From NCBI RefSeq assembly GCF_005145025.1, contig NZ_CP039695.1, positions 1,669,501 to 1,733,500 on the forward strand: a DNA stretch of 64,000 nucleotides, read 5' to 3'. The notes beneath the pieces are model-generated. The model saw only the letters and a program-made list of their open reading frames with translations. It was not told the DNA's origin and made no database searches. The position numbers were made by a program, and so were the translations under genes. This DNA is from Novosphingobium sp. EMRT-2 (GTDB lineage: Bacteria; Pseudomonadota; Alphaproteobacteria; Sphingomonadales; Sphingomonadaceae). Positions within the stretch are counted from its first letter, which is position 1. Each line of letters opens with the position of its first letter. Below, piece by piece: positions 35,494-63,577 of this stretch.

Positions 35494-36810
35494 ATGAACG
35501 ATGCCCAACCATCCATTCACCGCAAAATCTTATTATATATAAAAAAAAGGTGGCTGCGGACACAAGATCATATAAATAAACGCTGGTTCCGCTATTTTTC
35601 TTGGCGGAAATATGTTTACGAGCTGCAGAATCACTCGTTTTCCGCGATTACAGCCCGGCAGACAGGAAAGGTATACATTGATGTTTCTGTGATTTGTACG
35701 GATGACGCGGCGACCGGGATTCAACGTGTTGTAAGATCGGTAGCCTTTCATCTCAACAAATCAGGTGAGATGCTGAAATTTTCCCCCATCTTTATACATA
35801 CATATAAAAAAAATCATTATATAGTAAATATAAATGAAGGGCGTTTCGAAAAAACAAATGAATTAGTCGAATATTTTGAGGGTGATGTTTTCTTTGGATT
35901 AGATTATTGCCTGGATACCATTTGGAGAATGCGGAAGCAATTATCTTTAATGAAAAAGAAAGGTGTTAAGTTCTGGTACCTTGTTCATGATTTTTTACCA
36001 TACACGCATCCATCTTGGTTTTCATCGCCCACGGTACTCCGTTTCTACAATTGGTTAGCAATTATCGCAGCATCCGCTAACGGGTTTTTCTGTGTATCCC
36101 AACCCGTTGCGCGACAATTGCGTAACATCATCAAGAGCGACTTTGGCGTAACAAACGACGTAGCGATTCAAGTCATTCCCCTTGGGTGCGATTTATCGCA
36201 CAATAGTCCGCTAAAAGGATTTCCCGACGGGTTCGATGTGTTGCTCGAGAAAGTTCGCACCACACCATCTCTATTGATGGTGGGCACGATCGAGCCACGT
36301 AAGGGTCACAAGGATGCGCTACGCGCAATGGAAGTGCTATGGAAAGCGGGGCATCCAACGCAACTGGTGCTGGTAGGCGGCAAGGGATGGAAAATTGCAG
36401 AGTTTATCGCCGAACTCGATGCGCATCCAGAGAACGGCCATCGATTGATCCGCACAGACAAGATCAGCGACGAGGCGCTGGACCTCCTCTATCAAAACTG
36501 CACCGGTGTATTGTTCCCCTCTTTGGCGGAAGGCTTCGGCCTTCCGGTAGTGGAAGCGCTCAAGCGCGGGAAGCCGGTGCTGGCACGTCGGTTGGAGGTA
36601 TTCGCCGAACACGCGGGCAAAGGCGTGACATTTTTTGACGAGGAAATTGATGCTCCAAAACTGGCCTCGACGATCTCCGAGTGGCTCAAGGGATTGCCTG
36701 GTGACGAGCCCGCGCGCCCGGATTTGCTCGCGACATGGGATGACACTGCCCGTTGCATCGCGGACATCCTACGTCATTCCAGAAATGGATTGGGGCAAAT
36801 GACGCCGTGA
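35494..36810 (+). CDS. Family 4 glycosyltransferase
   Basis: This 438-residue GT-B enzyme has N-terminal DDAATGIQRVVRSVAFHL and FWYLVHDFLPYTHP, and a C-terminal GT4 domain with LLMVGTIEPRKGHKDALRAM, VLVGGKGWK and the donor motif EGFGLPVVEALKRGKPVLAR. The same architecture occurs in the gene at 57825. ATG 35494 is chosen without a clear Shine-Dalgarno; 35392 would add 34 poorly conserved residues. The first ~500 bases are very AT-rich while the 3' half is near 50% GC, suggesting a mosaic or recently imported gene. Probably adds a sugar to the capsule repeat. Confidence 0.88.
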   Translation: MNDAQPSIHRKILLYIKKRWLRTQDHINKRWFRYFSWRKYVYELQNHSFSAITARQTGKVYIDVSVICTDDAATGIQRVVRSVAFHLNKSGEMLKFSPIFIHTYKKNHYIVNINEGRFEKTNELVEYFEGDVFFGLDYCLDTIWRMRKQLSLMKKKGVKFWYLVHDFLPYTHPSWFSSPTVLRFYNWLAIIAASANGFFCVSQPVARQLRNIIKSDFGVTNDVAIQVIPLGCDLSHNSPLKGFPDGFDVLLEKVRTTPSLLMVGTIEPRKGHKDALRAMEVLWKAGHPTQLVLVGGKGWKIAEFIAELDAHPENGHRLIRTDKISDEALDLLYQNCTGVLFPSLAEGFGLPVVEALKRGKPVLARRLEVFAEHAGKGVTFFDEEIDAPKLASTISEWLKGLPGDEPARPDLLATWDDTARCIADILRHSRNGLGQMTP

Positions 36811-36991
36811 TGCGATAGTTTCCGCTTCATTTTGCAATGCGTATCCAGAACGATCGCAGCAAACTCGTGAACCACCATGGCTTGACCCACCAGTCAAAAA
36901 TGTTGAATGAGCAGCACGCTGGGAGCCGCGCTTCATCGTCAGGCAACATACTCCACGCTACTAGCGCGCTGGATTGCTCAAGGATTTCGGA

Positions 36992-38179
36992 ATGAATGAT
37001 ACCATTTGGAGGATGCGGTTCCGAACGACAATCTTGCTGAGCGCGTGTGCGATAATCCTGACATCCTGCACATCGCTCGGATCATCCGGGCCGAATGGCG
37101 GCGACGTACGCAAAGCGGCAAACCAGTCCTTGCGGAATACGTCAATCAAGGTGATTGAACTGACAGCACCGGTCGCATCTCGGGTCGTCCAAATGAACCA
37201 ACCCGCAACATTCTCGGATGCTTTAGGAGAAGGCACGCCGATCGGCACGATTATCGGACGCGGCGATACTTTGGATGTAGCAATCTGGGAAGCACCGCCA
37301 GCAGCGCTATTCGGCACGGTTATCACCGACAGCAGACTGGCATCAGCCACGACGGTAGCGCGCGGATCGTCGCTACCGGAACAGATGGTCGATGCTAACG
37401 GGCAGATCAACATTCCCTTCGCGGGGAGAATTGCGGCAGCCGGCCGAACGCCTACGCAGATCGAGCAAGATATCGTGAGGCGCCTGGGGGGCAAGGCACA
37501 TGACCCTCAGGCCGTCGTTCGACTGGTCCGCAATGCCAATACTAACGTCACCGTAGTCGGCGACGTAGCGAGCAGCGTGCGCATACCCCTAACACCGAAG
37601 GGAGAGCGCTTGCTTGATGCCCTAGCAAGTGCCGGCGGCGTCAAGCAACCAGTCGGCAAGACGACCATACAGGTTACGCGCGGCTCAAAGGTAGTCACGA
37701 TGCCGCTCGAAGGAGTAATCAAAGATCCACATCAGAATATCCGCCTGCAACCCGATGACGTTATTACCGCGCTCTACCAGCCCTATAGCTTCACTGCGCT
37801 TGGCGCGATCGCCAACAATGCGGAAATCAATTTTGAAGGAACGGGGATCACGCTGGCACAGGCACTTGGAAGAGTAGGTGGTTTGCGAGATGATCGCGCC
37901 AACGTACGCGGAGTGTTCATTTTCCGCCTTGAAGATCCCGCAGCGCTGGATCCAGCCATGCTAGGAGACTCCACCGCGACGCCGGATGGCAAAGTCCCAG
38001 TCATTTATCGTGTGGATTTAAAGAATCCCGCAAGCTTCTTTATCGCTCAGGATTTCCCCCTTCACAATAAAGACGTACTTTACGTATCAAATGCGCCAGG
38101 CGTAGACTTGCAGAAGTTCGTGAACATAGTCTCACAAATGGCCTTCTCGGTCATTTCGATTGGAAATGCGATAAATTGA
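36992..38179 (+). CDS. Outer-membrane polysaccharide export protein (BexD/CtrA/KpsD-type, Wza family)
   Basis: This 395-residue lipoprotein forms the outer-membrane channel for the capsule. It has a lipobox LTSC near residue 26, the Poly_export domain (IIGRGDTLDVAIWEAPP and GQINIPFAGRIAAAGRTPTQ), then SLBB-type repeats (VTVVGDVASSVRIPLTPKGE and FTALGAIANNAEINFEGTGI). ATG 36992 has AAGGA 7 bases upstream. It is separated from its likely partners kpsEMT and is on the opposite strand. Base composition is lower in GC than the core genes. Confidence 0.93.
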   Translation: MNDTIWRMRFRTTILLSACAIILTSCTSLGSSGPNGGDVRKAANQSLRNTSIKVIELTAPVASRVVQMNQPATFSDALGEGTPIGTIIGRGDTLDVAIWEAPPAALFGTVITDSRLASATTVARGSSLPEQMVDANGQINIPFAGRIAAAGRTPTQIEQDIVRRLGGKAHDPQAVVRLVRNANTNVTVVGDVASSVRIPLTPKGERLLDALASAGGVKQPVGKTTIQVTRGSKVVTMPLEGVIKDPHQNIRLQPDDVITALYQPYSFTALGAIANNAEINFEGTGITLAQALGRVGGLRDDRANVRGVFIFRLEDPAALDPAMLGDSTATPDGKVPVIYRVDLKNPASFFIAQDFPLHNKDVLYVSNAPGVDLQKFVNIVSQMAFSVISIGNAIN

Positions 38180-38298
38180 CCTTTGTTATCCTGCAATGAA
38201 GTAACCTGTAAACGGTGATATCGGCTTTCTAGTTGGTAATAATTATCCAGAAAAATGTCTGCACAGCGAAATCGTCCTCGCCAACCAACGGAAGCGCA

Positions 38299-39153
38299 TC
38301 AAAGCGCCCGCTCAATTTGTTCGAACGTATGCCTAAATTCACCGGTAACGCCTAACGCTTCGCGCGGATATCGATCGTACATCGCAAAGCTTCCTGCAAG
38401 GAACTCGTCAAGACCAAATTGCCGATAGGTATCGTAGGTTTTGAATATGTAAGAACCAGGCACCCCGAGACTTTCTCCAATTTCCGGGTACACGGCAAAT
38501 CCACCGGCATACGCAAGGTTATCGTGCGGCATAGTCACATTGGCCAACGGCTCTCGACCGATTGATTTCACCAATTCTTTCGCCAAATCAAATAGTACCC
38601 GGATCTTCGGATGGTTCGTACTATACATGAAAGCGTCGTTGTCACCCCAACGCCGAATTTGATGTGTGATGTCGATGCCGATCTGATGAAGATGGTCAAC
38701 AATGCGATCACGTTCCGACTGCCACCAGCCGAACAAACCGCAGATTTCAAACGTTCGACCACGATAGAGTTCACGCGTATCTGCCAAGCTCATACCCTTG
38801 CGATAGGCGGCGAGCGCGATCCCGGAGTGGTAGTCATCCGCCGGACTCTTGAATGTAACACCCCCGCATTGCGCGTACACAAGATCCGGATGATAAGCAC
38901 GGAAACTGAACCACGGCAGCATCGTGTGCTGCTTGATACGCTCCAACCTAGCGCGAGGGATCATCTTCTCGATGCCGGGGGATATAAACAATCGATCATA
39001 CTGGGCTAAAGTCCGATTGTTGCGCAACGGAGCATTATTGAAACTGTGCGGGTACATTCCCGTCACTTCCACATCAGGTACAAGTGATTGCAAAGAATTC
39101 GCGAGCCCATGGGTCTGGCAATTTGCGATAACCAGCCAACGTTCTTGTGCCAT
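38299..39153 (-). CDS. WcbI-type polysaccharide biosynthesis protein (putative acyltransferase)
   Basis: This 284-residue protein starts WLVIANCQTHGLANSLQSL, the N-terminal block of WcbI proteins, and contains LFISPGIEKM and FVYA-like FGWWQSERDRIVDHL segments. WcbI of Burkholderia capsule loci binds CoA and is thought to acetylate capsule sugars. ATG 39153 overlaps the GSCFA stop by one base (TGATG), so the two are coupled. Last gene of the minus-strand capsule operon. Confidence 0.8.
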   Translation of the reverse strand: MAQERWLVIANCQTHGLANSLQSLVPDVEVTGMYPHSFNNAPLRNNRTLAQYDRLFISPGIEKMIPRARLERIKQHTMLPWFSFRAYHPDLVYAQCGGVTFKSPADDYHSGIALAAYRKGMSLADTRELYRGRTFEICGLFGWWQSERDRIVDHLHQIGIDITHQIRRWGDNDAFMYSTNHPKIRVLFDLAKELVKSIGREPLANVTMPHDNLAYAGGFAVYPEIGESLGVPGSYIFKTYDTYRQFGLDEFLAGSFAMYDRYPREALGVTGEFRHTFEQIERAL

Positions 39154-40214
39154 CACATGGCCTCACGCGAATCTAGAACTTCTTCATCGCATAGATATTG
39201 AGTTATCTGCGGTCGATCAGCGACTGCAGGCAAGGCGCTGCCCCCCTCGTTCAGCGCATTCCCCCCCTCTAGGTAACTAGACAGGAAGCAACGCATCGCA
39301 TGCGCCACGCCCAGCCCGTTTACCTCTCGAGCATCGTCTTCAAAGTAGCGACCACGCGCCTGACTGCCGGTGATGATCTCGTAGGAAGGAAAATAGTCAA
39401 CCCAATCGTGCTCCTTCCAAGCCAATTCAGCAACCACGCGCAGCACAGCCTTGCTGTAAGCCGTTGCAACCGTGATGGAACGCTTATCTGCCGTCGCAAT
39501 TAATGGCACTGGCGAAACAGTCAACATTACCTGCGCTCGCGGATTTACATCCCGAAACTTTCCTAAAAAATCTCTCAGCTCGGCATAACTTTGTACGACG
39601 TCCAAATTTGTGAAGATATGCTTTGTGGAATCGAAGCTATCGGCTATCACCCCGGGAGCGGCAGAATAGACTGATCCGTCGGACAAGGCGCGCCAGCATT
39701 CTGTCAACCCTAAGGTAAAAACGAAAACGTCGCATAACTCGAACATCGCCCGAACAGCCTCGAGGTGTTCGGCTCTGCTTTCGACAACCGCCTCTGCATC
39801 AATGAAACCATCGGGTTCAATCTGCTGCCGGAATGGGTCAATCCACCGCAGATCCGGCCGTTGCCACGCACGATCATCGGGAATCCGTTTACCAAATGCT
39901 TCGTCGAACAGCTGGTTGAGCTGCATCGTGGTGTAGATATTGCCGAACCGAGCTGAAAATATGCCGTATCCAAGTCGTGCGCGCTCGCCTGAATCTAAAT
40001 GCTCGCCCATCTCGGTCTGGAAAAAGTTGCATCCTGCGTCCGCCAGCGCCCTTGCGATATGCTGGGCGAAACAGCTGCCTGCCGTGGCGACACGAGAATG
40101 GCGGTTAATAGTGAAGCGCGGCTCCAGTACAGGATTGAAGCAATGCGCTTCCGTACGGGCCACAGACCGGCGCCAGTATCTGTTATCGGGGAGATCTCGA
40201 TAGGGATTTGTCAT
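39153..40214 (-). CDS. GSCFA domain protein
   Basis: This 353-residue protein carries the defining motif TAGSCFAQHIARALADAG near residues 44-61, plus VFTLGLTECWR and TVSPVPLIATAD, which match GSCFA (SGNH/GDSL-like hydrolase fold) proteins. These occur in capsule and O-antigen loci and may acylate or deacylate glycans. Ser in GSC would be the nucleophile; that is inference. ATG 40214 overlaps by 4 bases a short open frame that follows the decarboxylase gene. Confidence 0.87.
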   Translation of the reverse strand: MTNPYRDLPDNRYWRRSVARTEAHCFNPVLEPRFTINRHSRVATAGSCFAQHIARALADAGCNFFQTEMGEHLDSGERARLGYGIFSARFGNIYTTMQLNQLFDEAFGKRIPDDRAWQRPDLRWIDPFRQQIEPDGFIDAEAVVESRAEHLEAVRAMFELCDVFVFTLGLTECWRALSDGSVYSAAPGVIADSFDSTKHIFTNLDVVQSYAELRDFLGKFRDVNPRAQVMLTVSPVPLIATADKRSITVATAYSKAVLRVVAELAWKEHDWVDYFPSYEIITGSQARGRYFEDDAREVNGLGVAHAMRCFLSSYLEGGNALNEGGSALPAVADRPQITQYLCDEEVLDSREAM

Positions 40215-40399
40215 GGCCTGCCTCTCACTAGATCATTTTCCCCGCCCTGTTGATCGGCAGTCTCGAAAATCGCTCCGGGAGAAGGGATGAATGACTGCTC
40301 GAGGGTCGTTTCAATTCGTGCGAGGCGTCCGCTTCGATCATAATGACGATAAAGAGAGCAACTCGCGCCTGGGTCAGCCAACTGCGACAGGCTCCCCAA
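40211..40399 (-). CDS. Possible small protein bridging the UXS and GSCFA genes
   Basis: A 62-codon open frame starts with TTG immediately after the TGA of the UDP-glucuronate decarboxylase gene, in the same frame, and ends in an ATGA overlap with the GSCFA start. The segment SLYRHYDRSGRLARIE has ordinary protein composition and slightly resembles the N-terminus of GIY-YIG domains, but the rest does not continue the motif. No Shine-Dalgarno is seen. It could equally be non-coding spacer or a read-through tail. Confidence 0.28.
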   Translation of the reverse strand: MGSLSQLADPGASCSLYRHYDRSGRLARIETTLEQSFIPSPGAIFETADQQGGENDLVRGRP

Positions 40400-41332
40400 T
40401 CAGACAATGGATCGGAAATAATCGATCGTTTCCTTCAACCCGTCCTCCAACGCCACTTTGGGCTCCCAGTCCAAACGAGACTGAGCGAGCGTTATGTCAG
40501 GGCAGCGCTGCTTTGGATCATCTTGCGGCAGGGGTTCGAACACCAGCTTCGATTTCGTCCCGGTTAAGCGGATCACGGTTTCCGCCAATTCGATCATCGT
40601 AAACTCGCCAGGATTGCCCACATTGACCGGCCCCGTGAATTCAACCGAGCTGTCCATCAAGCGGATCATTCCTTCGATCAGATCGTCCACATAGCAGAAA
40701 CTGCGAGTCTGCAGGCCGTCGCCGTAGATTGTAAGATCTTCCCCGCGCAGGGCCTGGACGACAAAATTGGAAACCACACGCCCGTCTTGCGGATGCATGC
40801 GAGGTCCATAGGTGTTGAAAATGCGCATCACCTTGATTTCCAGGTGGTGCTGGCGATGATAATCGAAGAACAATGTCTCTGCGCAGCGCTTGCCCTCGTC
40901 ATAGCAACTGCGAATGCCGATCGGATTAACGTTACCCCAATAGCTTTCCATCTGCGGGTGCATTGATGGATCGCCATATACCTCGCTGGTCGACGCCTGA
41001 AGTATCCGAGCCTTCACCCGTTTCGCCAGCCCCAACATGTTGATAGCCCCATGGACGCTCGTTTTCGTCGTCTGCACCGGATCATTTTGATAATGAATGG
41101 GGCTTGCAGGACATGCAAGATTGAATATACGGTCAACTTCTACATAAAGCGGCCAGCATACATCGTGGCGCATCAGCTCGAATGACGTCTTTCCCAAAAG
41201 ATGGGCGATGTTCCTTTTGCTACCTGTATAGAAGTTATCGACACACAGCACGTCATCGCCACGCGCAATCAGTCGATCACATAAATGTGATCCGAGGAAA
41301 CCTGCACCACCCGTAACCAGCACCTTACTCAT
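40400..41332 (-). CDS. UDP-glucuronic acid decarboxylase (UDP-xylose synthase) type epimerase
   Basis: This 310-residue SDR-family enzyme has the Rossmann motif [15 protein letters not shown] (residues 7-21), [20 protein letters not shown] and STSEVYGDP, the catalytic Tyr/Lys in [11 protein letters not shown], and [21 protein letters not shown]. These blocks are specific to UXS enzymes that make UDP-xylose from UDP-GlcA. ATG 41332 gives a normal start. So xylose, or a derivative, is a likely component of this capsule. 10 bases separate it from the methyltransferase. Confidence 0.9.
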
Positions 41333-41342
41333 CAAATTTTCC

Positions 41343-42185
41343 TCATTTCCCATTCTTGGCGAAAACACCGATAATTGTATTACGCATCAATGGATGATCC
41401 ATTTCGCCGTATTCAGCCTGAAAATCATAGACGTGATGGGCAGAACCGGATCTCCAATTGGCATGATCATTCATACCAAAATAGTTCTTAACCGAGAATC
41501 CATTACCCTCAAAAAGCTCCCTAACTTCATGCGGAGTAAACTCACGATTATGCCTATCAGTTCCACCAAAGAATATATCTGAATCCCAGAATATATTCCG
41601 ACCATTCAGAAGTGATATTATGTTACTTATATTACAGACGTTAGGTGTAGAAAACAGAACAACACCATCCTCACGTAGAACACGAAGAAACTCCGGCAGA
41701 ATTTCTCGAGGGTGCCGAATCGCGATGTGTTCCAGAACCTCTGTAAATACGATCGCATCGAATGCACCATCCGGATAGGGCAATGCTGATTTCTCAATAT
41801 CGCATGCCTGTACACGAAAGTGGTCGACGAATGACAAGTCTGGATAAGTCGAGTTCCATGCGTCCGACAGGTTAATTCCATCGATGCTGTAACCAGCTTT
41901 GTCGAGCATAATCGCCAAGTAGCCGGGGGCATTGCCAATGTCCAAGATACGTGCCCCGGGAGGCAGATGCATCATGCCCATTGAAACGAGCGTAGAAAAT
42001 CTGTCCCTGCAGCATTGATAGTAATCACCTTTTACGGCCTCTTCTCCGATTACCAACTCACTTTCCGCCACAATCTCGCGCGTGGCGTGCGCTATTGCTT
42101 CCGGTATGGAAGGCGCCGCAGGTAAGTTGATTGCATCAGAGGGAACCTCTTTGAGCGTCGATTCTATAATACGGTTGAAATTCAT
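41343..42185 (-). CDS. SAM-dependent class I methyltransferase
   Basis: This 280-residue protein has motif [21 protein letters not shown], an acidic motif II region, and [18 protein letters not shown] with [13 protein letters not shown], the signature of small-molecule methyltransferases. ATG 42185 is 5 bases after the GT90 stop. Lower GC than the core genes. It probably O-methylates a capsule sugar, a role inferred from the neighbours. Confidence 0.88.
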
Positions 42186-42190
42186 AGCGC

Positions 42191-43306
42191 TCAAAATCCT
42201 GATTGAGAGGCCAAGCTGACAGCGAAATCGCACATCTGCAGAGCTGCTGCTTCAAATTGACTTTCAAACGACAGGCCCTCGGCCATCGCCTTGCCTTCTG
42301 CGCCGATCTCTTCGGCAACATCAGGGCGAGCCTCCAGTATGCCAAGGCTGTGATCGAGATCAACTATATCGCGTGCCACCGGGACGAAATTGCGCCAAGG
42401 CGACAGCTTATCATAGTACCATTGCCGGAAACCCATATCGGACTCTATTTTGAGCACTGGAGATCCGGCCAACAATTTGATGAATAGGCCAGTCCATGCA
42501 CAACTCCAGCCATCGACATCCAGGTTGTACCGATAATCGAGTATATTCATTTGCGGCTCTGGTGCGCCCAGACCTCCCACGCTCCTGACTCGTTCGCCGA
42601 CAGCCTCATCGATTCCATTTAGCGAAGCGAAGCGTACATTATAAGATGCCGGCCTAGGGCTTTCCAAACTGTGCAATACCAGTTGCACGCGCTGGGAAAA
42701 CGCATGATCAGCATATTTCTGCATACCGCTTGGCGCACCACGCCAATATATCTGTGGCTTGCGCTGATCCCAGCCTTTCCAGTTTTCTGAGATTTCCGCC
42801 TTTTCCTTCGCGTACGCGCGAGTCAGGAAAAAATAAGGATCCGGAATAAGCCAAGAACGTTCCAATTGCGAGGAAAAGGCCAAGCATCGCCTGCCCCAAT
42901 CGCTATCTCCAAGCGAAACAGGCACCTCACCCACGAGCGCATTGCCACGCAAGGCATCAGCCAAGCGCGCTATGCCAGCCATCGGCACAAGCCGCGCCAG
43001 AAGAACGTCAGGGAGGTTCTCAGTCACCTTCAAAAGGATACGATCGCTCAGAAAAGCGATATGCAGCATTTCATCAGCTAAATGGTTGTCCCAAGTATAG
43101 CCTTCGCTCTCAACCAGACGCAATCTGTCGAAGCAGACAAAGATAGGCCGCATAGCGCCGTCACTATCAAGTATAGGCATTTCCATGCCAACCCGCGCGT
43201 GTCCCCCGGCAACATGAGGTTTTGAACGATTAACCCACGCCCACATGTCTTCGGGCTGCCAATTGCACGGCTGCCCCGGCAATACTTCAACCGGTATCTC
43301 AGCCAT
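42191..43306 (-). CDS. Glycosyltransferase family 90 (CAP10-like) protein
   Basis: This 371-residue protein contains KPQIYWRGAPSGM, then NILDYRYNLDVDGWSCAWTG, then AGSPVLKIESDMGFRQWYYD and FVPVARDIVDL, the core of the GT90 (CAP10/POGLUT) domain that transfers xylose or glucose. A UDP-xylose synthase two genes downstream makes xylose transfer attractive; this is inference. ATG 43306 overlaps the upstream triple glycosyltransferase gene by 8 bases. Confidence 0.85.
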   Translation of the reverse strand: MAEIPVEVLPGQPCNWQPEDMWAWVNRSKPHVAGGHARVGMEMPILDSDGAMRPIFVCFDRLRLVESEGYTWDNHLADEMLHIAFLSDRILLKVTENLPDVLLARLVPMAGIARLADALRGNALVGEVPVSLGDSDWGRRCLAFSSQLERSWLIPDPYFFLTRAYAKEKAEISENWKGWDQRKPQIYWRGAPSGMQKYADHAFSQRVQLVLHSLESPRPASYNVRFASLNGIDEAVGERVRSVGGLGAPEPQMNILDYRYNLDVDGWSCAWTGLFIKLLAGSPVLKIESDMGFRQWYYDKLSPWRNFVPVARDIVDLDHSLGILEARPDVAEEIGAEGKAMAEGLSFESQFEAAALQMCDFAVSLASQSGF

Positions 43307-46415: not shown

Positions 46416-46416
46416 A

Positions 46417-49861: not shown

Positions 49862-49963
49862 GACTGCCACCGTATTCCCGTGTCAGAGACGGATGCCATT
49901 GCATCGTCCGTCCGAAAACCGGATCGCTCCGAAATCCATGCGAGCACCTTTCACCGTCCGTCT

Positions 49964-53552: not shown

Positions 53553-53758
53553 GAGGAATTCCGCCACCTTTCGCCACCCGGGCGAGACCACCCGATTCAG
53601 ATACGAATAAACTTGATTTCAACGATCTGGCCCTCATGGATAAGCAAGGCCATTTTGGCAATTTCTCTTGTTACAAATATCTGAAATACATGCAAAACGC
53701 CCGCTCCGCACGGCACCTAGCAAGGCCTTGAGCGAACAGTGTAGAGAACAAGGTGGAA

Positions 53759-55588: not shown

Positions 55589-56203
55589 GTGTTCATCATC
55601 GTCCGCCACGGCAAAACCTTTGCCGCCGGGGAAGCGCCGCGCCGCATCGGCGCGCGCACCGATCTTCCGCTGACTGACGAAGGCGAACAGGAAGCCCGCC
55701 GGCTGGGCGACCACTTCGCCGAACTGGGCTGGCGTTTCGGCAAGGTACTGGTTTCACCCCTGCTCCGCGCCCAACGGACCGCAGCGCACATCCTTGCCGC
55801 GCAAGGCACGGCGATCACGGCCGAGGAGGCGGATTTCCTTGCCGAGATCGACCACGGACCGGACGAGAACCAGACCGAAGACGCCGTGCTGGCGCGGATC
55901 GGCAACGCCGCGTTGCGCGCCTGGGATCACGCCGCCGAACCGCCGCCCGGATGGATCGTGGACGCGCCCGCGCGGATCGGGGCCTGGGCGGATCTGTTCG
56001 CACGTACACCCGCAGATCGCGATGCCCCGGTGCTGCTGGTGACCAGCAACGGCGCGGCGCGCTTCGCGCTGCTGGCCGATCCGGCCCTCAGCAAGGCCGC
56101 CGAAGCGCTGCCGTCGCTCAAGCTGCCCACGGGCGGCTATGGCATGATCCGCCGCAACGCGGACGGACGGCTTGAAGTTCCCGTGTGGGGGCAGCGCCCT
56201 TGA
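55589..56203 (+). CDS. Histidine phosphatase superfamily protein
   Basis: This 204-residue protein starts VFIIVRHGKTF (the RHG catalytic motif) and continues with RTDLPLTDEGEQEARRLGDH and SPLLRAQRTAAHIL, typical of phosphoglycerate-mutase-like phosphatases. The second catalytic His normally in a GH motif is less clear. GTG 55589, 8 bases after kdsB, is the earliest credible start because the upstream frame lies inside kdsB. It overlaps the KpsC-like gene by 4 bases. A phosphatase for Kdo-8-P would suit the place, but the KdsC (HAD) family is different, so the role is unknown. Confidence 0.85.
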   Translation: MFIIVRHGKTFAAGEAPRRIGARTDLPLTDEGEQEARRLGDHFAELGWRFGKVLVSPLLRAQRTAAHILAAQGTAITAEEADFLAEIDHGPDENQTEDAVLARIGNAALRAWDHAAEPPPGWIVDAPARIGAWADLFARTPADRDAPVLLVTSNGAARFALLADPALSKAAEALPSLKLPTGGYGMIRRNADGRLEVPVWGQRP

Positions 56204-57828
56204 GCGCGACCGCCCCCCAGTCCTTGCTACGCGCGCCACCGTTTCCGGGCCTTGATGCAGGAGTCACGATCGCCGGCATTGCCTCCGCGTCGCCGGAAAA
56301 CAGCGATCCGGCGGCTCTGTTCGCGCGTATCCGCGCGGCGCGAGTCGGCGGCGCGTTCTGGGAAAGGCCCGCCGCGCTTTCGCGCCCTGCCTCGGTCGTC
56401 CTGCGCCCCCGCTCGCCCGGTGAAGCCGCAACGCTGGCCAGCGGTCTCAACCAGCAGGAAGCGGCAGAGGCACTGTGGATCACACCCGCTCGCGCGGATG
56501 CAGCCGATCCGTGGTCCGCGCTGGAAGGCGCGGGGACACTCGTCGCGCACGGCGATGACGAATGGGTCGCCCTGGCGTGCATCGCCGGCGTGCCGGTGCG
56601 CGTTCTCTCGCCCGGTCCCTTCGGCGCGCCGGGCGACGGGCAGGCGGCGCTGGAAGCGGCCGCCCTGCGCGCGCTGGCCACGCCGTGCTATCGCGATCCC
56701 TTCACCGGCGAAGCCACGACCCTTCTCGCGACGATTGCGACTCTGGCCGAATGGCGTCGGATCATCGACGGCAACCGGGCCATCGTCGCGGCCTGCGGCA
56801 TGGCATGGTGGAAACGGGAGGAAATCCGCCGCTTCCTGTGGTGCCCCGGTCAACCGTTGCGAATCGTCTCGCGCCCCGCGCGGGCGCTGGATCTCGCGGC
56901 ACGGCACGATGGCCAAGTGGCGATCTGGCCATCGCGCGTATCGCCCGCACTGCTGGCCGCGGCCGCAGACAAGGGCGTGCCTCTCGTGCGCGTGGAGGAC
57001 GGGTTCGTCCGCTCGGTGGGCCTTGGTAGCAACCTCGTGCCGCCCTCCTCGATCGTGGTGGACCGCCAGGGCATCCATTTCGATCCTTCCGGCCCCAGCG
57101 ACCTCGAAACGATTCTCGCCGCCACCCGCTTCGCGCCCGACCTGATCGACCGCGCGCGCACCTTGCGCGAAACGATCGTGGCCGCCGGGATCAGCAAGTA
57201 TTCCACCGGCAGCGCCTCATCCGCCCCACCCCGCCAGCCCGGGCGGCGGCTGGTGCTGGTTCCCGCGCAGGTAGAAGACGACATGTCGGTGCTGGCCGGT
57301 GGCGGCGGGCTGCATTCCAACCTGGAACTGCTGCGCCGCGTCCGCGCGCTGGAGCCGGATGCCGAAATCTGGTTCCGGCCGCACCCCGATGTCGATGCCG
57401 GCCACCGCAAGGGCGCGGTGCCCGATGGAGAGGTGCTGCAACTGGCCGACCGCATCGTGCGCGAAGGCGGCATGGCCCCGCTGCTCGACGTGGTCGATGC
57501 CGTGCACGTGCTGACCTCGCTGACCGGGTTCGAGGCGCTGATGCGCGGGCGCGCGGTGACCTGCCATGGCATACCGTTCTACGCCGGCTGGGGGCTGACC
57601 CGAGATCTCGCCACGATACCCGACCGGCGCGGGCGCGCGCTGACCCTGGACGAACTCGTCGCCGGGGTGCTGATTCTCTACCCCCGCTATCTCGATCCGG
57701 TCACCGGCCTCCCCTGTCCGCCCGAAGTGCTGGTGCGCCGCATGGCGGAAAACCAAGCGCCCAACCGGCTGGGCTGGGTGGCGCCCTTGCGCCGCTGGCA
57801 GGGGCGGTTCATGGCGATGTGGCGATGA
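56200..57828 (+). CDS. KpsC-like capsule beta-Kdo transferase, one full module plus remnant
   Basis: The 542-residue protein contains one complete KpsC-type module in residues ~210-540: VAIWPSRVSPALLAAAADKG, VEDGFVRSVGLGSNLVPPSS, VLVPAQVEDDMSVLAGGG, WFRPHPDVDAGHRKG, TSLTGFEALMRGRAVTCHG and FYAGWGLTRDL. The first ~200 residues resemble only the last part of another module (YRDPFTGEATTL, AEWRRIIDGNR). E. coli KpsC has two full modules that add Kdo with alternating linkages. TTG 56200 (TTGA overlap) is used; GTG 56185 is possible. It is the Kdo-linker enzyme for capsule. Four bases overlap the GT4 gene. Confidence 0.9.
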   Translation: MSATAPQSLLRAPPFPGLDAGVTIAGIASASPENSDPAALFARIRAARVGGAFWERPAALSRPASVVLRPRSPGEAATLASGLNQQEAAEALWITPARADAADPWSALEGAGTLVAHGDDEWVALACIAGVPVRVLSPGPFGAPGDGQAALEAAALRALATPCYRDPFTGEATTLLATIATLAEWRRIIDGNRAIVAACGMAWWKREEIRRFLWCPGQPLRIVSRPARALDLAARHDGQVAIWPSRVSPALLAAAADKGVPLVRVEDGFVRSVGLGSNLVPPSSIVVDRQGIHFDPSGPSDLETILAATRFAPDLIDRARTLRETIVAAGISKYSTGSASSAPPRQPGRRLVLVPAQVEDDMSVLAGGGGLHSNLELLRRVRALEPDAEIWFRPHPDVDAGHRKGAVPDGEVLQLADRIVREGGMAPLLDVVDAVHVLTSLTGFEALMRGRAVTCHGIPFYAGWGLTRDLATIPDRRGRALTLDELVAGVLILYPRYLDPVTGLPCPPEVLVRRMAENQAPNRLGWVAPLRRWQGRFMAMWR

Positions 57829-59045
57829 CCGCCGTCATTCTCGACATCTCGCGCCTGATCTCGCGCGTGCGCCACAATACGCCGTCGGGCGTGGACCGGG
57901 TGGAGATGGCCTACGCGCGCGGCCTGATGAAGCGCTATGGCGACGGGCTGGCCTTCGCCGCCGTCCACCCCACCGGTCTCTATGGGCGATTGCGGCGGGC
58001 GCAGGCCATCGCCTACCTCGACGAACTCGAGCGGCGCTGGACGCAGGAAGCGGAAGACCCGGACCAGCGCCCGCACCAGCGATCGCTGCCGTCCGTCCTG
58101 CCACAGATGGCGGCGTTGTGGCCGCAACGGCCCCCTGCTCCGACCGGCCCGGTGCCCCCGGTCTATGTCCAGGTCTCGCCCCATCACCTCACCCGCCAGG
58201 CGCTGGTGCGCCGCATCCTGCAACGGGAACGGGCGCGGTTCATGTGCATGGTGCACGATCTAATTCCGATAGAATTTCCTGAATATGCGCGGCCTTCGGG
58301 CGCGGCGCTGCATCGGCAGCGCATGGAAACGGTGGTCGCCTGTGCCGATGCGGTAATCGTCAATTCGGCTGCCACCGGCCGATCGCTGCGCCCGTGGATC
58401 GAACGGAGCGGCCGGGCGATCGCCACGCATGTCGCCTTGCTGGGCACCGAAGACCTCACCGCCCCAGCCGCTCCAGCGACCTCGGCGGAGCGGCCCGCGT
58501 TTGTGTGCCTCGGCACGATCGAGCCGCGCAAGAATCACCTGCTGCTGCTGCACCTGTGGCGCCACCTGGCGGAAACGATGCCGGCGCCGGACGTGCCGCG
58601 CCTGGTGATCATCGGCCGCCGCGGCTGGGAAAACGAACAGGTGGTGGACCTGCTGGAGCGCTGCCCAGCGCTGAAGAGCCATGTCGAGGAAATCAACGGC
58701 TGTTCCGACCAGCGGATGGCCGCGCTGCTGGCAAGCGCCCGCGCGCTGCTCATGCCCTCGTTCGCCGAAGGATTCGGGATGCCCGTTGCCGAAGCGCTGT
58801 CGCTGGGCGTGCCGGCGATCTGCAGCGATCTTCCCGCCTTGCGCGAAGTGGGCGGAAACACCCCCGACTACCTCGATCCGCTGGACGGCCCCGGCTGGAA
58901 GGCGATGATCCTTGACCACGCCCGCTCCGGCCCGGCCCACGCCGCGCAGAAGGCACGGCTTGGGCAATGGCACAAGCCGCTGTGGAGCGAGCATATGGAT
59001 ATTGTCGAACAGGCGATCGCCGGCCTCCGCCAGCCGACAGCCTGA
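57825..59045 (+). CDS. Family 4 glycosyltransferase
   Basis: This 406-residue GT-B enzyme has the N-terminal block RHNTPSGVDRVEMAYARGL and FMCMVHDLIPIEFPEYARPS, and the GT4 block FVCLGTIEPRKNHLLLLHLW, VIIGRRGWENEQVVDLLERC and SFAEGFGMPVAEALSLGVPA. The architecture matches the gene at 35494. ATG 57825 overlaps the KpsC-like stop (ATGA). It is GC-rich like the core. Probable first or linking sugar transferase after Kdo; this is inferred from its coupling to kpsC. Confidence 0.9.
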   Translation: MTAVILDISRLISRVRHNTPSGVDRVEMAYARGLMKRYGDGLAFAAVHPTGLYGRLRRAQAIAYLDELERRWTQEAEDPDQRPHQRSLPSVLPQMAALWPQRPPAPTGPVPPVYVQVSPHHLTRQALVRRILQRERARFMCMVHDLIPIEFPEYARPSGAALHRQRMETVVACADAVIVNSAATGRSLRPWIERSGRAIATHVALLGTEDLTAPAAPATSAERPAFVCLGTIEPRKNHLLLLHLWRHLAETMPAPDVPRLVIIGRRGWENEQVVDLLERCPALKSHVEEINGCSDQRMAALLASARALLMPSFAEGFGMPVAEALSLGVPAICSDLPALREVGGNTPDYLDPLDGPGWKAMILDHARSGPAHAAQKARLGQWHKPLWSEHMDIVEQAIAGLRQPTA

Positions 59046-59048
59046 GCG

Positions 59049-59666
59049 TCAGTGCCTCGGCTTGGTCGAGGTAATCGCGGTTCCGAACAGGCGGTCCCAC
59101 AGCGGCGTCGTGATCGCGTAGTTGCCATGTTCGCTGATGTGGTGGTGGCGCATGTGGTGTTGCTTGATTGCACGCGCCATGCGCCCGCGCATCGGCCACT
59201 GATGGCACGCGAAATGGGTGAAATCGTAAACCACGTAGCCCGAGATAAAGCCCAGGAACAGCCAGTCCCCACCCGGCCCCACCATCGAGACACAGGCATA
59301 CCACACCGCCGCCGCAATCGGCACGCTCACGATTGGTGGCATCATGTTGCGCAACCGGTCATTGGGGCTCGCGTGATGATTGCCGTGCATGATGAAGGTG
59401 AAAGCCTGCAGCGGCTTCCACTTTAGCCGCAAGTGGAACAGGAAGCGATGCATGGCATATTCGAACAGCGTCCACAGCCACAGACCGCCCACGACCAGGC
59501 TGAACGCAGCAGCCACGCTGACGGTGCCCCAGCCCATCCAGACCAGGAAGGGGAGAAACATCCCCCAGATCGCGCCGAAAGCGACAGGGGAAACCACGGT
59601 CAGCTTTTCAAGCCACGCGTTCCGAAACAATCTGATCGGTTGCAGATGCGAACTCCGGGCTGTCAT
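59049..59666 (-). CDS. Fatty acid hydroxylase family membrane protein
   Basis: This 205-residue integral membrane di-iron enzyme contains the histidine motifs EYAMHRFLFH, MHGNHHASPND, YDFTHFACH and KQHHMRHHH, which match the fatty acid/ceramide 2-hydroxylase branch. Three to four hydrophobic segments are present. Sphingomonads make 2-hydroxy fatty acids for glycosphingolipids, so an acyl 2-hydroxylase role is plausible. It is convergent with the GT4 gene (3-base gap). Confidence 0.9.
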   Translation of the reverse strand: MTARSSHLQPIRLFRNAWLEKLTVVSPVAFGAIWGMFLPFLVWMGWGTVSVAAAFSLVVGGLWLWTLFEYAMHRFLFHLRLKWKPLQAFTFIMHGNHHASPNDRLRNMMPPIVSVPIAAAVWYACVSMVGPGGDWLFLGFISGYVVYDFTHFACHQWPMRGRMARAIKQHHMRHHHISEHGNYAITTPLWDRLFGTAITSTKPRH

Positions 59667-59865: not shown

Positions 59866-60678
59866 ATGTTCAGCCCTATACGGTTTGATGGCAGTTTTGT
59901 TCCTGCCCCCCACACAGGCCGGGTTCTTGTCGTGGGAGCATCGGGCGAACTGGGTGGCGCCCTCGCGCGGCACTATGCCCGGGCCGGCGCCCAGCTATCG
60001 CTGTGGGGGCGCGACAGCGGCCGGCTCGATGCCCTCGCCGCAGCTTGCCTGGAGTTTGGCGCGGGCGCGGTGGCTACCCGATCCCTGGATCTATCCGATA
60101 CCGATGGCGCGCTGGACGCCCTGTCGCGCGAAGAGGCCGACGAGCCGTTCAGCCTCGCCCTGTTCGCGGCGGGCTGTGGCGATGTCCGCACCAAAGGCGC
60201 CATGGTGGAAGATGCCGCGCAGGTGGCCCGTCTGGCGCAGGTCAACTTCCTGGCGCAAGCGGCCATGGCCGCCCGTTGCGCCCAGGCGATGGCCGCGCGC
60301 GGGCACGGCGCGATCGTCGTGATCGGGTCGGCCGCCGCCGATCACGCACTGCCTTTCGCTGCGGCCTATGCCGGATCGAAGGCGGGTTTGGCCCGCTTCA
60401 CCGACGCGCTGCGCATCGGTGTGCGGCCGTACGGCGTATCCGTGACGCTCGTATCCCCCGGCTTCATCGACACGGCGGCAGCCCGGCGGGTCCCTGGTCC
60501 CAAGCCGCTGATTCTGCAGCCTGACAGAGCCGCCGCGCTGATCGCGAAAGCGGCGGCGCGCGGAAAAGCCCATGTAGTGCTGCCCTGGCCGTTCGGGCTG
60601 CTGCGGCTCTTCTCGGCGATCCTGCCGCGCTTCCTGCGCGATCGGTTGCTGCGCGCGCTTACGCCGCCGGGGGTGTAG
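59866..60678 (+). CDS. SDR family oxidoreductase
   Basis: This 270-residue protein has the cofactor loop VVGASGELGGALARHYARAG, the catalytic triad region IGSAAADHALPFAAAYAGSK (Ser..Tyr..Lys) and SPGFIDTAAARRVPG. The C-terminal stretch is hydrophobic and basic (WPFGLLRLFSAILPRFLRDR), suggesting membrane association. ATG 59866 is used. The last 20 bases overlap the tail of the convergent LTA-synthase-like gene. The substrate is unknown. Confidence 0.9.
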   Translation: MFSPIRFDGSFVPAPHTGRVLVVGASGELGGALARHYARAGAQLSLWGRDSGRLDALAAACLEFGAGAVATRSLDLSDTDGALDALSREEADEPFSLALFAAGCGDVRTKGAMVEDAAQVARLAQVNFLAQAAMAARCAQAMAARGHGAIVVIGSAAADHALPFAAAYAGSKAGLARFTDALRIGVRPYGVSVTLVSPGFIDTAAARRVPGPKPLILQPDRAAALIAKAAARGKAHVVLPWPFGLLRLFSAILPRFLRDRLLRALTPPGV

Positions 60679-62161
60679 CCAGAAGATCGTGGACCGCGTG
60701 ATGGAGCTGCGCCGGAGTGAGGTCCACGCGCCGCCCCTCCCCCTCCACCACCGCGCCGGAGGCATCGAGGCGAACGACAACATACGGCGTGTGGCGTACC
60801 GGCCCCGGCGTGGTGACACCGGGGATGCTCGGGCGGTGATCGCCGAAGAAGACGAGGACCGAAGGCCGGCCAAGGTCAGCCAGCGCTTCGAGCAATGCCG
60901 CCAGCATCGCATCGCTGTTGCGTACAAGGCGCAGGTAAGAGGCAACGAGATCGCGCGGCCCCGATCCATCCTCCGGTGCCCAGGGGCCATGATTCTCGAT
61001 CGTCACGGCGTAAAGCATCGTTGCTTCCGTTGCCTTTCGCGCCAGATCGCCAATCGTTCCGGCCATCGCCGCGTCGGTCACGTAGCGCCCCTCCCCTGCC
61101 GAGGGTTGCTCGAAATGCTCTTCGCCCACCATCTCCGCGAAGCCGGCGGCAGGCATGATGCGGTGCCGGTTGTAGAATCGCAGGTCGTGCGGGTGGAGAA
61201 ACAGGCTGCGCCATCCTCGCCCGGCAAGCCGCGCGGGCAAGGCGTGCGACGCTTCGCCCACCGCGGTCAGGAACGGATCGTACCGGCGGAAGCCCAGTTC
61301 CTCCTCGTCGCGACCGAAGATCAGGCCATACTCGGTGCGCATGGTATAGGCGCCGAACCCGCTGACGTTGAGATCGCCCCATTGCCAGGCGACCGAACGG
61401 GCGCGGGCCAGGCCCGGCAATTCCAGCGCCGGATCGCCGAACAGGTCCACGGGATCGGCGAAGGATTCGCATTGCACGATCACCGCCAGCGGAGGTTCGA
61501 CCGCCATCATTCCGACCGCCACCTCGGGGTGAGCACGCGGCGCGGGATCGACCGTCGCGCGCCAGCGCAGCCAATAGAGCAGCAAAGTCGCCAGCAAACC
61601 GTGGCGGCGCACGTCCCCGTCCAGATCGGGCTCCGGAGCAAGACCGCGCCACGGCGGAATTGCCATGACCCACCGCAACAACACCAGACTGCCCCCTAGC
61701 AACAGCGCGCCGGCCAGATGGGCACCGATGTCGCCGACGAATAGCCACGCGAACAGCGCCAGCAGCACCGGTCCGCTGGCGATCAGCACCCCCTTTTGCA
61801 CCGGGCTCAACGCTGACAGATAGAACTGCGGATGGCGCAGCACAGCGCCGACAAGCACGAGGTCGGAGAACACCAGCGGTTCACCCAGCATGGTGTGCTT
61901 GGCGTTGGAAACGACCGTGAACAGCGCCACCAGCGCCAGCGTCAGGATCGCGGAGGCCAGCGGATTGCCGCAGATGCCAAGGAATAGCCCGAAGCCGCTG
62001 GCGACCAGCAGCATGTGCAGCACCATGCCGGCCGCGCTGCGCAAGGGCCAACGCGCATCGCCATCGCGCCGGGGGCGAACCAGCCCGTCCAGCACCAGCG
62101 ACGCGGCGACAAGCCCCGAAAACAGCAGAAACGTGCCTGTCACAGCCCCTCGATAAAACAT
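60659..62161 (-). CDS. LTA synthase family (sulfatase-fold) phosphoglycerol transferase
   Basis: This 500-residue protein has about five transmembrane segments in residues 1-170, followed by a periplasmic sulfatase-fold domain: VIVQCESFADPVDLFG, the Thr nucleophile region LNVSGFGAYTMRTEYGLIFG, FLHPHDLRFYNRHR and the metal site FFGDHRPSIPG. Relatives transfer phosphoglycerol from phosphatidylglycerol onto glycans. ATG 62161 gives a direct first TM helix. It is divergent from kpsS and convergent with the SDR gene. It might decorate the capsule or a periplasmic glucan. Confidence 0.9.
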   Translation of the reverse strand: MFYRGAVTGTFLLFSGLVAASLVLDGLVRPRRDGDARWPLRSAAGMVLHMLLVASGFGLFLGICGNPLASAILTLALVALFTVVSNAKHTMLGEPLVFSDLVLVGAVLRHPQFYLSALSPVQKGVLIASGPVLLALFAWLFVGDIGAHLAGALLLGGSLVLLRWVMAIPPWRGLAPEPDLDGDVRRHGLLATLLLYWLRWRATVDPAPRAHPEVAVGMMAVEPPLAVIVQCESFADPVDLFGDPALELPGLARARSVAWQWGDLNVSGFGAYTMRTEYGLIFGRDEEELGFRRYDPFLTAVGEASHALPARLAGRGWRSLFLHPHDLRFYNRHRIMPAAGFAEMVGEEHFEQPSAGEGRYVTDAAMAGTIGDLARKATEATMLYAVTIENHGPWAPEDGSGPRDLVASYLRLVRNSDAMLAALLEALADLGRPSVLVFFGDHRPSIPGVTTPGPVRHTPYVVVRLDASGAVVEGEGRRVDLTPAQLHHAVHDLLATPPAA

Positions 62162-62335
62162 TCGCGCGGGCAGGGTGGCCGCAGCGTGGATGCCTTAGCC
62201 ATCCCCGAAGGCAATGTCATGGGCGGCTCGTGCGCAAGTGGATGAAATTGATTGGTGGAAACCTGGACGTGGCTCATCGACGCTTCATGTGCTTCGCCCT
62301 AGGGACGTTTGGATGAGGTTCCGGAACACTTGCCG

Positions 62336-63577
62336 ATGCCCGATGAAATAGTGCGTACCGGGGAACGGCGCCGGGTGCTGTTGCTGCAAGGCCTGATGGG
62401 TCCACTGTTCCGCCATCTGGGCCAGGGGCTGATTCGCGCCGGGCATACGGTTTACAAGGTCAATTTCAACGGCGGCGACCGGGCGTTCTGGCGCCTGCCC
62501 GGCGGCATCGACTATCGCGGCACCCTGCAGGACTGGCCCGCCGCGCTGGAAGCCATCCTGCGCGATCGGCGAATTACCGACGTGGTGCTGTTCGGCGATT
62601 GCCGCGATCACCACATGGCCGCCACGCGGGTCTGCCGGGCGCTGGAGGTGCCGGTCCATGTCTTCGAGGAAGGCTATATCCGGCCCGACTGGGTCACGCT
62701 GGAACTGGGCGGGGTCAATGGCCATTCCTCGCTCCCGCGCGACCCGCAATGGTATCGCGATAGCGCCGCCGCCTTGCCACCCGTCCCGCAGCACAGCCAG
62801 GTGCCATCCTCTTTCCGCCGCCGCGCGCTGGAAGGGCTGCTCTACAACGTCGCCGACGTGTTCACGCGCTGGCACTATTCCAACTGGAACAACCATCGTC
62901 CCTGGCCCCCGCTGGTGGAAGGCATGGGCTGGCTGCGCAAGCTGCGCGCGCGGAAATTGCGCGAGGCGCAGGCCGCCCGGTTGTTCGCGCGCATGGAAGC
63001 GTCGCCCGAGCCCTATTTCCTGTTCCCGCTCCAGCTTGACTCGGACGCGCAGATCCGGCTTCATTCGCCCTTCGCGGGCATTGCCGAGGCGCTGAACCTG
63101 ATCATCGCCTCGTTTGCCCGGCACGCGCCGGCCGATACGCGGCTGGTCATCAAGGAGCACCCGCTCGACAACGGCGTGCGCGATTGGGAGCAGACCGCAC
63201 ACGACCTGGGCGAACGCTATGGCGTGGCCGCGCGGATCGATTATCTGGCGGCCGGAGACATCGTGGCCATCGCCCGTGGCGCACGGGGCATGGTGACGAT
63301 CAACAGCACCAGCGGAACCTTCGCGCTGGCGATGGGCGTCCCCGTCGTCGCGCTGGGCCACGCGGTCTATGACATCCCGGACCTTACCGCGCGCGGCGGG
63401 CTGGACGCCTTCTGGCAGAACCCGGTACCGCCCGATCCGGAAACCTTCGCCGCGTTCCGGCGCGTGCTGATCGAACGCTGCCTGATCCCCGGGGGCTTCT
63501 TCTCGAAGGAAGCGCTCGACAAGGTCGTCCGGCACGCCATCGCGCGGTTCGAGGGAACGCCCCTTCCGCCCGAATAA
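62336..63577 (+). CDS. kpsS: Capsule polysaccharide beta-Kdo transferase KpsS
   Basis: This 413-residue GT-B enzyme adds the first Kdo to phosphatidylglycerol in the group 2 capsule linker. Motifs are VLLLQGLMGPLFRHLG, GDRAFWRLPGGIDYRGTL, FGDCRDHHMAATRV, EEGYIRPDWVTLELGGVN, FLFPLQLDSDAQIRLHS, VIKEHPLDNG and TINSTSGTFALAMGVPVVAL. ATG 62336 is used; TTG 62309, closer to an AGGGA sequence, may be the true start. It is divergent from the LTA-synthase-like gene by a 174-base region and convergent with the lptA-like gene. Confidence 0.93.
   Translation: MPDEIVRTGERRRVLLLQGLMGPLFRHLGQGLIRAGHTVYKVNFNGGDRAFWRLPGGIDYRGTLQDWPAALEAILRDRRITDVVLFGDCRDHHMAATRVCRALEVPVHVFEEGYIRPDWVTLELGGVNGHSSLPRDPQWYRDSAAALPPVPQHSQVPSSFRRRALEGLLYNVADVFTRWHYSNWNNHRPWPPLVEGMGWLRKLRARKLREAQAARLFARMEASPEPYFLFPLQLDSDAQIRLHSPFAGIAEALNLIIASFARHAPADTRLVIKEHPLDNGVRDWEQTAHDLGERYGVAARIDYLAAGDIVAIARGARGMVTINSTSGTFALAMGVPVVALGHAVYDIPDLTARGGLDAFWQNPVPPDPETFAAFRRVLIERCLIPGGFFSKEALDKVVRHAIARFEGTPLPPE

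Follow-up and report, generated by a model that had tools for sequence, protein, structure and literature searches.

A group 2-type capsule locus of Novosphingobium with a kdsB-linked histidine phosphatase as candidate for the missing Kdo-8-phosphate phosphatase

In Escherichia coli, the conversion of 3-deoxy-D-manno-oct-2-ulosonic acid 8-phosphate (Kdo-8-phosphate) to Kdo is carried out by KdsC, an enzyme of the haloacid dehalogenase (HAD) superfamily, and the group 2 (Kps) capsule system uses KpsD as a channel component. Here, we analyzed a capsule locus in a 64,000-nucleotide stretch of Novosphingobium sp. EMRT-2 (contig NZ_CP039695.1, positions 1,669,501 to 1,733,500; hereafter the window), whose kds and kps genes resemble those of the E. 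coli system and in which a histidine phosphatase is encoded between kdsB and kpsC. That Kdo-producing bacteria lack KdsC is named as a gap in a passage of PMC5615194, where nonspecific phosphatases are suggested, and a passage of PMC8036547 gives KdsC as absent from Granulibacter. KpsC is described, in the part of PMC10148158 that concerns its architecture, as two GT107-type modules that share QxxxD and HP motifs, the N-terminal one adding beta-2,4-linked Kdo and the C-terminal one beta-2,7-linked Kdo. In a section of the review PMC4881576, the rkp-1 region of Sinorhizobium is credited with the production of a specific lipid carrier that serves capsule export. Our results indicate that the window probably holds an ABC-transporter capsule locus of a sphingomonad without detectable LpxK, LpxC, or WaaA, in which the histidine phosphatase would take the place of KdsC.

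The genome of this strain comprises 4,770,198 bases in 5 contigs and has a completeness rating of 100%; it was compared with samples of 79, 80, and 241 genomes of the order, genus, and class, respectively, all with a completeness of at least 95. The KdsC profile (TIGR01670) gave a single match in the own genome, of 25.9 bits inside an 848-aa frame and below the cut-off of 106.95, and no KdsC was found in any of the 46 KdsB-positive genomes of the genus. Of the 241 genomes in the class sample, 223 have KdsB and 8 have a KdsC-type match, which is over the cut-off in six. Three genomes from a different family of the order have a true KdsC gene, placed between kdsA and kdsB. As a separate observation, two of the 80 genus genomes have a KdsC match (G128:C1:878566-879009 and G160:C72:30984-31418); both are without KdsB, and the frames of about 420 aa may be fusions with a cytidylyltransferase.

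The locus contains no visible candidate for the missing step other than the 204-aa histidine phosphatase, encoded by a gene that was not in the earlier list for this locus and that starts 8 bases after the kdsB stop, with its frame overlapping that of kpsC. Because of this gene position and the missing KdsC step, Kdo-8-phosphate is proposed as its substrate, and the protein, as the best candidate for the Kdo-8-phosphate phosphatase, most likely carries out this step. A literature search on histidine phosphatases with Kdo-8-phosphate found no paper. The phosphatase gene was detected in 24 of the 80 genus genomes, all of them KdsB-positive, and each of the 24 has it immediately 3' of kdsB on the same strand, with 48–119 bases between the alignment ends. 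In genomes G005 and G123, which are without a Capsule_synth match, the phosphatase of the pair is a distant form (33–34%). The gene was also present in named Croceibacterium and Sphingomonas loci (L006, L008), and the few named genomes among the 120 best relatives listed are Micavibrio, Rhodospirillales, Bdellovibrionales, and unplaced Alphaproteobacteria or Pseudomonadota, where the protein is annotated as histidine phosphatase, phosphoglycerate mutase, or hypothetical.

When the 241 class genomes were searched with a family profile (A3, threshold 1e-12), 41 matched; 23 of these, including the own genome, scored at least 104.8 bits and the others at most 65.3. Among the strong loci kdsB is directly upstream on the same strand in 21 of 23 (exceptions L087 and L105), while it was beside the match in none of the seven weak loci examined, and among the 19 loci whose frames are complete, the phosphatase begins -11 to 67 bases after the kdsB stop. 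In 20 class loci with flanks of 6.5–16 kb, a set outside which G333 and G276 fall, there was no match to kdsA, kdsD, kpsC, or kpsS, and an ABC ATPase matched weakly in one; thus, the pairing with kdsB is not just capsule synteny. Pfam naming of ten neighbor genes from five class loci gave nine that look unrelated and one HAD-family hydrolase. On a plasmid of Hirschia baltica the pair stands beside glycosyltransferase and sugar-nucleotide genes, and the 18.6 kb considered hold no annotated kdsA, kdsD, kpsC, or kpsS. In a midpoint-rooted tree of 94 KdsB sequences (matches shorter than 150 residues excluded), all 36 with a phosphatase neighbor form a single clade (FastTree support 0.885), with the bias that the 30 other class loci in the tree are the highest-scoring KdsB matches.

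The motif state of the family was read from an alignment of 27 distinct sequences, mostly from Novosphingobium, from which rows with less than 80% coverage, with stops, or identical to others were excluded. All 27 keep the RHG motif together with the second Arg and the Glu, and the RHG Arg and His, second Arg, and Glu are invariant in three alignments. At the position of the second catalytic His, all 27 sequences read Ser-Asn-Gly, and so does the window protein. The same tripeptide is found in 20 of the 22 readable strong class members, with Ser-Gln-Gly in L100 and His-Gly-Gly in L106 (L101 is cut off), and the second His is kept in six of seven generic weak relatives. The fold predicted from a 10-sequence input has a mean predicted local distance difference test (pLDDT) score of 80.3, with about 58 over residues 1–20, which hold the RHG motif, and its template modeling (TM) scores against histidine phosphatases are 0.5–0.7 among the 50 matches listed. 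The protein has the fold and the RHG nucleophilic His of histidine phosphatase branch 1 and lacks the second catalytic His of that branch.

Several points weigh against the assignment of this phosphatase to the KdsC step. The replaced second His, which concerns 21 of the 22 readable strong class members (20 Ser-Asn-Gly and one Ser-Gln-Gly) and every row of the 27-sequence alignment, could reflect a different chemistry or a loss of activity. Moreover, both this phosphatase and KdsC are missing from 22 of the 46 genus genomes with KdsB, so another phosphatase must serve there and could serve in the window organism too. In L087 a strong phosphatase match has no kdsB nearby, and L151 has the HAD-family hydrolase gene some 1.9 kb upstream of kdsB, a slight point. 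A single-sequence search of the order sample found the phosphatase in one of 79 genomes, the own one only; the view of a very narrow gene that this count gave was overturned by the class profile search. An inositol-monophosphatase-type gene is a second candidate for the missing phosphatase. Of 30 other class loci, 14 have a match of this type no more than about 1.5 kb from kdsB, and such a match occurs in 5 of 20 other genus stretches of 10–17.5 kb, the latter count being partly by construction since the profile (at most six sequences) drew mostly on genus loci of the kind counted. Such a gene was also seen in the type-B Novosphingobium kds loci L051, L053, L061, L064, L065, and L184 (6237-7070). 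It is conceivable, though we consider it rather unlikely, that an enzyme of this type or a generalist, like the nonspecific phosphatases suggested in the passage of PMC5615194, performs the step, and that the histidine phosphatase acts on another phosphate or is a pseudo-enzyme affecting KdsB. The invariant RHG Arg and His, second Arg, and Glu and the operon-tight pairing with kdsB argue against this. In addition, the two phosphatase types were not seen at the same locus (14/30 against 0/22 class loci with the histidine phosphatase; Fisher p 9e-5), though the kdsB loci of the two types belong to different clades, so that relatedness may be the cause. Several phosphatase families may fill the KdsC gap in different lineages, or generalists may do so. 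For the histidine phosphatase as the predicted enzyme of the window, its tight pairing with kdsB in part of the class turns the published gap into a one-enzyme assay.

Whether this Kdo is made for the capsule or for lipopolysaccharide (LPS) was examined with LpxC, LpxK, and WaaA, as the earlier note, which explained Kdo as a capsule sugar, had proposed to search the same genome for lipid A and waaA genes. None of the three had a match in the own genome, while control genomes were positive (for LpxK, those of E. coli, Caulobacter, and Bacteroides); LpxA, LpxB, LpxD, and the sphingolipid genes were not searched. LpxC was absent from all 41 genomes (the own genome, 24 of the same genus, and 16 of the order), and WaaA from the own and the 24 genus genomes, with three matches among the 41, all in other families. 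In the genus sample, at E up to 1e-10, KdsB and Capsule_synth (the KpsC/KpsS family) each occur in 46 of 80 genomes: 44 have both, 32 neither, two KdsB only, and two Capsule_synth only (Fisher p 1e-17, relatedness ignored). A role of Kdo as capsule sugar is well supported, and the explanation in the earlier note survives as far as LpxK, LpxC, and WaaA go. It is highly improbable that Kdo serves LPS here as in most Gram-negatives and that the capsule merely shares it: kdsA, kdsD, and kdsB are the usual LPS genes, but the genome has no match to LpxK, LpxC, or WaaA, and KdsB follows the KpsC/KpsS-type proteins across the genus. Kdo could also belong to the repeat unit, a point against a linker role. 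A function in the repeat unit or as the building block of a poly-Kdo capsule, beyond that of a short linker, is quite unlikely. The relevant section of PMC4881576 reports a poly-Kdo capsule of S. meliloti 1021 that depends on the rkp-1 region, and the S. meliloti pSymB locus has relatives of the window KpsS, of the protein resembling lipoteichoic acid (LTA) synthase, and weakly of the short-chain dehydrogenase/reductase (SDR). Against a Kdo homopolymer, the window locus has many other sugar enzymes and glycosyltransferases, for which such a polymer has no need, and Capsule_synth matches in the genome (E up to 1e-10) are KpsC and KpsS only.

Two side observations concern these gene families. 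A WaaA-type Kdo transferase occurs in three Sphingomonadales genomes without an LpxC match (L171 7214-8677, L172 6817-8286, and G033:C39:54342-54860), with PmbA and Gcw_chp as neighbors in L171 and L172 and also an inositol monophosphatase in L172. In the genus genome G014 (L075 4988-6055), KpsS-type genes occur although KdsB has no match there, and an oxoamine-synthase-like gene is nearby.

The KpsC-like protein of the window (547 aa) does not have the dual GT107 architecture: its Capsule_synth and Protein Data Bank (PDB) matches are C-terminal only, and solved KpsC modules match residues 209–512 at most. The best solved match is 6mgd (213.5 bits), which we take to be the C module of KpsC, followed by the E. 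coli N module 6mgc and its variants (176–181) and 6mgb (153), and both modules of E. coli KpsC (675 aa) align to the single module of the window. Glu271, Lys338-Tyr339, Gln362...Asp366, and His400-Pro401 (positions mapped by eye) are identical in 16 of 16 aligned sequences including the window protein, and the position of the Tyr named in the passage of PMC10148158 reads His-Phe in all 16. Residues 1–207 contain neither QxxxD nor HP. A profile comparison of the N-terminal part with the C module of the same protein showed no similarity, and thus gives no sign of a decayed module, while a MAFFT alignment with E. coli KpsC, judged by eye, suggests that residues ~110–207 correspond to the tail of the N module in that protein. 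Of the relatives, 32 in the fetched loci measure 452–590 aa (identical matches and those covering less than 50% or lacking a full frame were excluded, and L002 and L022 are not in the set), and the best 120 database relatives 490–575 aa, among candidates pre-limited by length. Similar proteins are present in Acidisoma (501 aa) and possibly also in Cupriavidus (634 aa). Since KpsC has one module and only KpsC and KpsS match Capsule_synth, the Kdo linker is likely to be short or to contain a single type of linkage.

The lipid-type genes beside kpsS, also additions to the earlier list, bear on the lipid anchor. A KpsS scan gave 27 named loci, 20 of them from Novosphingobium and the nearest 97% identical, which bears out the probable sphingomonad host of the earlier note. 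Near kpsS in these 27 loci (matches covering less than 30% of the query excluded), the LTA-like gene is found in 25, the hydroxylase gene in 24, and the SDR gene in 23. Of 15 plasmid records with an LTA-like match, 13 have kpsS within about 2 kb; these include four from Sinorhizobium, three from Novosphingobium, and two from Shinella and are not independent, and one Roseomonas plasmid record has no kpsS annotated nearby. The only solved-structure match of the hydroxylase is the ceramide fatty-acid hydroxylase Scs7 (4zr1). An oxoamine-synthase-like gene lies in the same locus in Acidisoma, S. meliloti, a Pseudomonas plasmid, and Methylobacterium bullatum. The best solved relatives of the Acidisoma and S. 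meliloti proteins are serine palmitoyltransferases, and in NCBIfam the Acidisoma protein matches BioF best and then serine palmitoyltransferase, all below the cut-offs. No oxoamine synthase was found in the window, its flanks (L077/L078), or loci L001-L027, the rest of the genome lying outside this search; of the rkp-1-type module (oxoamine synthase, SDR, LTA-like protein, and KpsS), the window shows the last three.

Owing to the Scs7-like hydroxylase and the serine-palmitoyltransferase-like gene of related loci, an anchor on a sphingoid-type lipid in place of phosphatidylglycerol deserves serious consideration, and KpsS, the SDR, the LTA-like protein, and the ceramide-hydroxylase-like protein would then form an anchor module. 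The serine-palmitoyltransferase-like enzyme would complete this module in Acidisoma, Sinorhizobium, Methylobacterium, and the Pseudomonas plasmid, and the sphingomonad module would draw on the sphingolipids of the cell. We hold this reading of the genes to be rather doubtful. Eight genus loci with the other KpsS type (38–46% identity) have none of the lipid-type neighbors in the fetched stretches, and LTA synthases work outside the inner membrane and KpsS inside, which counts against a sphingoid anchor. A transfer of Kdo by KpsS to (lyso)phosphatidylglycerol as in E. coli, with the SDR, the hydroxylase, and the LTA-like protein as unrelated synteny, has a chance only slightly short of even. 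KpsS carries the family motifs, and the eight loci just mentioned favor this reading as well. Against it, 25 of the 27 named sphingomonad loci have the LTA-like gene next to kpsS, and in 13 of the 15 plasmid records, not all of them independent, the two genes are no more than about 2 kb apart. If the sphingoid anchor were true, the substitute phosphatase, the one-module KpsC, and this anchor would together make a capsule-terminus pathway distinct from that of E. coli.

The features of the locus are listed in Table 1. The earlier note had read kpsE-M-T, a BexD/Wza-type channel, a KpsC-like protein, KpsS, and kdsA, kdsD, and kdsB here, and all were present by family or profile matches. The description of these genes as a full group 2 export and linker set did not hold, with KpsC being of one module and no KdsC found. 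Curated cut-offs were passed by KdsA, KdsB, and KdsD, whereas KpsE, KpsM, and KpsS fall below theirs. A KpsM/KpsT exporter with a KpsE-type partner identifies the system as ABC-transporter-dependent (group 2-type), KpsE and KpsM being below the cut-offs, and KpsS and KpsC have the QxxxD and HP motifs of group 2 transferases, KpsC in one module only. A sequence comparison of KpsS with solved structures gave no match. On the minus strand kpsE, kpsM, and kpsT overlap serially, with kdsA just upstream, and on the plus strand kdsD, kdsB, the phosphatase gene, the kpsC-type gene, and a GT4 gene are joined by overlaps or the 8-base gap and so read as one operon. The channel gene is about 12 kb from kpsEMT, across a block of glycosyltransferases and modifying enzymes, and the hydroxylase-family gene, the SDR gene, the LTA-synthase-like gene, and kpsS make up the far end. 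The capsule-specific block encodes a 1050-aa protein (43299-46451) with two GT4 domains and one GT2 domain, and a 610-aa frame (48038-49870) between kpsT and the DUF4214 gene is without a Pfam or NCBIfam match. Plasmids carry related capsule genes in N. pentaromativorans US6-1, Novosphingobium sp. P6W, and sp. PP1Y (L175 pLA5, L184 pP6W2, and NC_015583.1, respectively).

Table 1. Features of the capsule locus, with positions in the window and the matches on which each assignment rests (GT, glycosyltransferase family; ORF, open reading frame).
Feature	Position	Strand	Matches
GT4 glycosyltransferase, locus edge	35392..36810	+	Glycos_transf_1 9.4e-22
BexD/Wza/VexA-type outer-membrane polysaccharide channel	36974..38179	+	Poly_export 6e-17; SLBB_2 3.1e-19; PRK15078 1.1e-31; VexA 3.2e-22
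Capsule-specific region: WcbI, GSCFA, sugar epimerase/dehydratase, methyltransferase, GT90, 1050-aa GT4-GT4-GT2 protein, DUF4214 protein	38299..48123	-	Pfam, seven ORFs
KpsT, ABC ATPase	49964..50617	-	ABC_tran 2.3e-17; TagH, Wzt, VexC among NCBIfam matches
KpsM, ABC permease	50614..51474	-	NF050053 2.4e-28, below cut-off
KpsE/BexC/CtrB family inner-membrane protein	51423..52532	-	TIGR01010 1.8e-102, below cut-off
KdsA, Kdo-8-phosphate synthase	52716..53591	-	NF003543 8e-123, over cut-off
KdsD/KpsF, arabinose-5-phosphate isomerase	53753..54745	+	TIGR00393 3e-88, over cut-off
KdsB, CMP-Kdo synthetase	54738..55580	+	NF003952 1.6e-64, over cut-off; frame overlaps kdsD
Histidine phosphatase, candidate Kdo-8-phosphate phosphatase	55589..56203	+	His_Phos_1 2.7e-25 on longer ORF; family alignments
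KpsC-type beta-Kdo transferase, one intact module	56185..57828	+	Capsule_synth 3.1e-42; 6mgd 5.4e-62, residues 209-511 only
GT4 glycosyltransferase, conserved kpsC neighbor	57819..59045	+	Glycos_transf_1 3.6e-18; synteny
Fatty-acid-hydroxylase family protein	59049..59666	-	FA_hydroxylase 2.3e-20; 4zr1 3.3e-21
SDR oxidoreductase	59866..60678	+	adh_short 1.5e-27
LTA-synthase-like (sulfatase-family) protein, possible phosphoglycerol transferase	60659..62161	-	Sulfatase 4.3e-24; GacH 5.8e-6 and LTA primase 3e-4 (solved structures)
KpsS, predicted first beta-Kdo transferase	62309..63577	+	NF050054 8.9e-79, below cut-off; Capsule_synth 1.6e-76; QLDSD and HP motifs

Taken together, these genes suggest a pathway in which KdsD, KdsA, a phosphatase, and KdsB would convert ribulose 5-phosphate to CMP-Kdo, with the step from Kdo-8-phosphate to Kdo assigned to the histidine phosphatase encoded between kdsB and kpsC. 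KpsS would put the first Kdo onto a membrane lipid, the one-module KpsC would add further Kdo, glycosyltransferases would lengthen the chain, and KpsMT-KpsE with the BexD-type channel would export the capsule. While gene identities by sequence, conserved adjacency, co-occurrence, motif state, and the absent LpxK, LpxC, WaaA, and KdsC matches were observed directly, the enzymatic activities, the substrate of the phosphatase, the length of the linker, and the nature of the lipid are predictions from sequence. The locus offers a case for studying Kdo apart from LPS, and its capsule linker and lipid anchor are predicted to deviate from the E. coli model. The specific proposal is that the kdsB-linked histidine phosphatase may be the missing Kdo-8-phosphate phosphatase.

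Compared with known enzymes, this phosphatase is predicted to perform the same step as KdsC from a different superfamily, being a histidine phosphatase of branch 1 and not a HAD enzyme. It shares its fold and RHG motif with the Hydrogenobacter phosphoserine phosphatase, CobC, and Rv2419c but, unlike them, has Ser-Asn in place of the second His, at about 20% identity. The Sinorhizobium rkp-1 cluster is similar in part: the S. meliloti pSymB locus, presumably rkpGHIJ, has the oxoamine-synthase-like protein, SDR, LTA-like protein, and KpsS in a row, and the last three are also in the window, with low identity between the SDR proteins (28% over 200 aa). Unlike rkp-1, the window contains a fatty-acid-hydroxylase gene but neither the large synthase gene nor that for the oxoamine synthase. 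With the E. coli group 2 system, the locus shares KpsE, KpsM, KpsT, KpsS, a KpsC-type enzyme, KdsB, KpsF/KdsD, and the QxxxD and HP motifs. However, its KpsC has 547 aa and one module against 675 aa and two in E. coli, its genome is without a detected KdsC, its channel is of the BexD/Wza/VexA type, and lipid-type genes stand beside kpsS.

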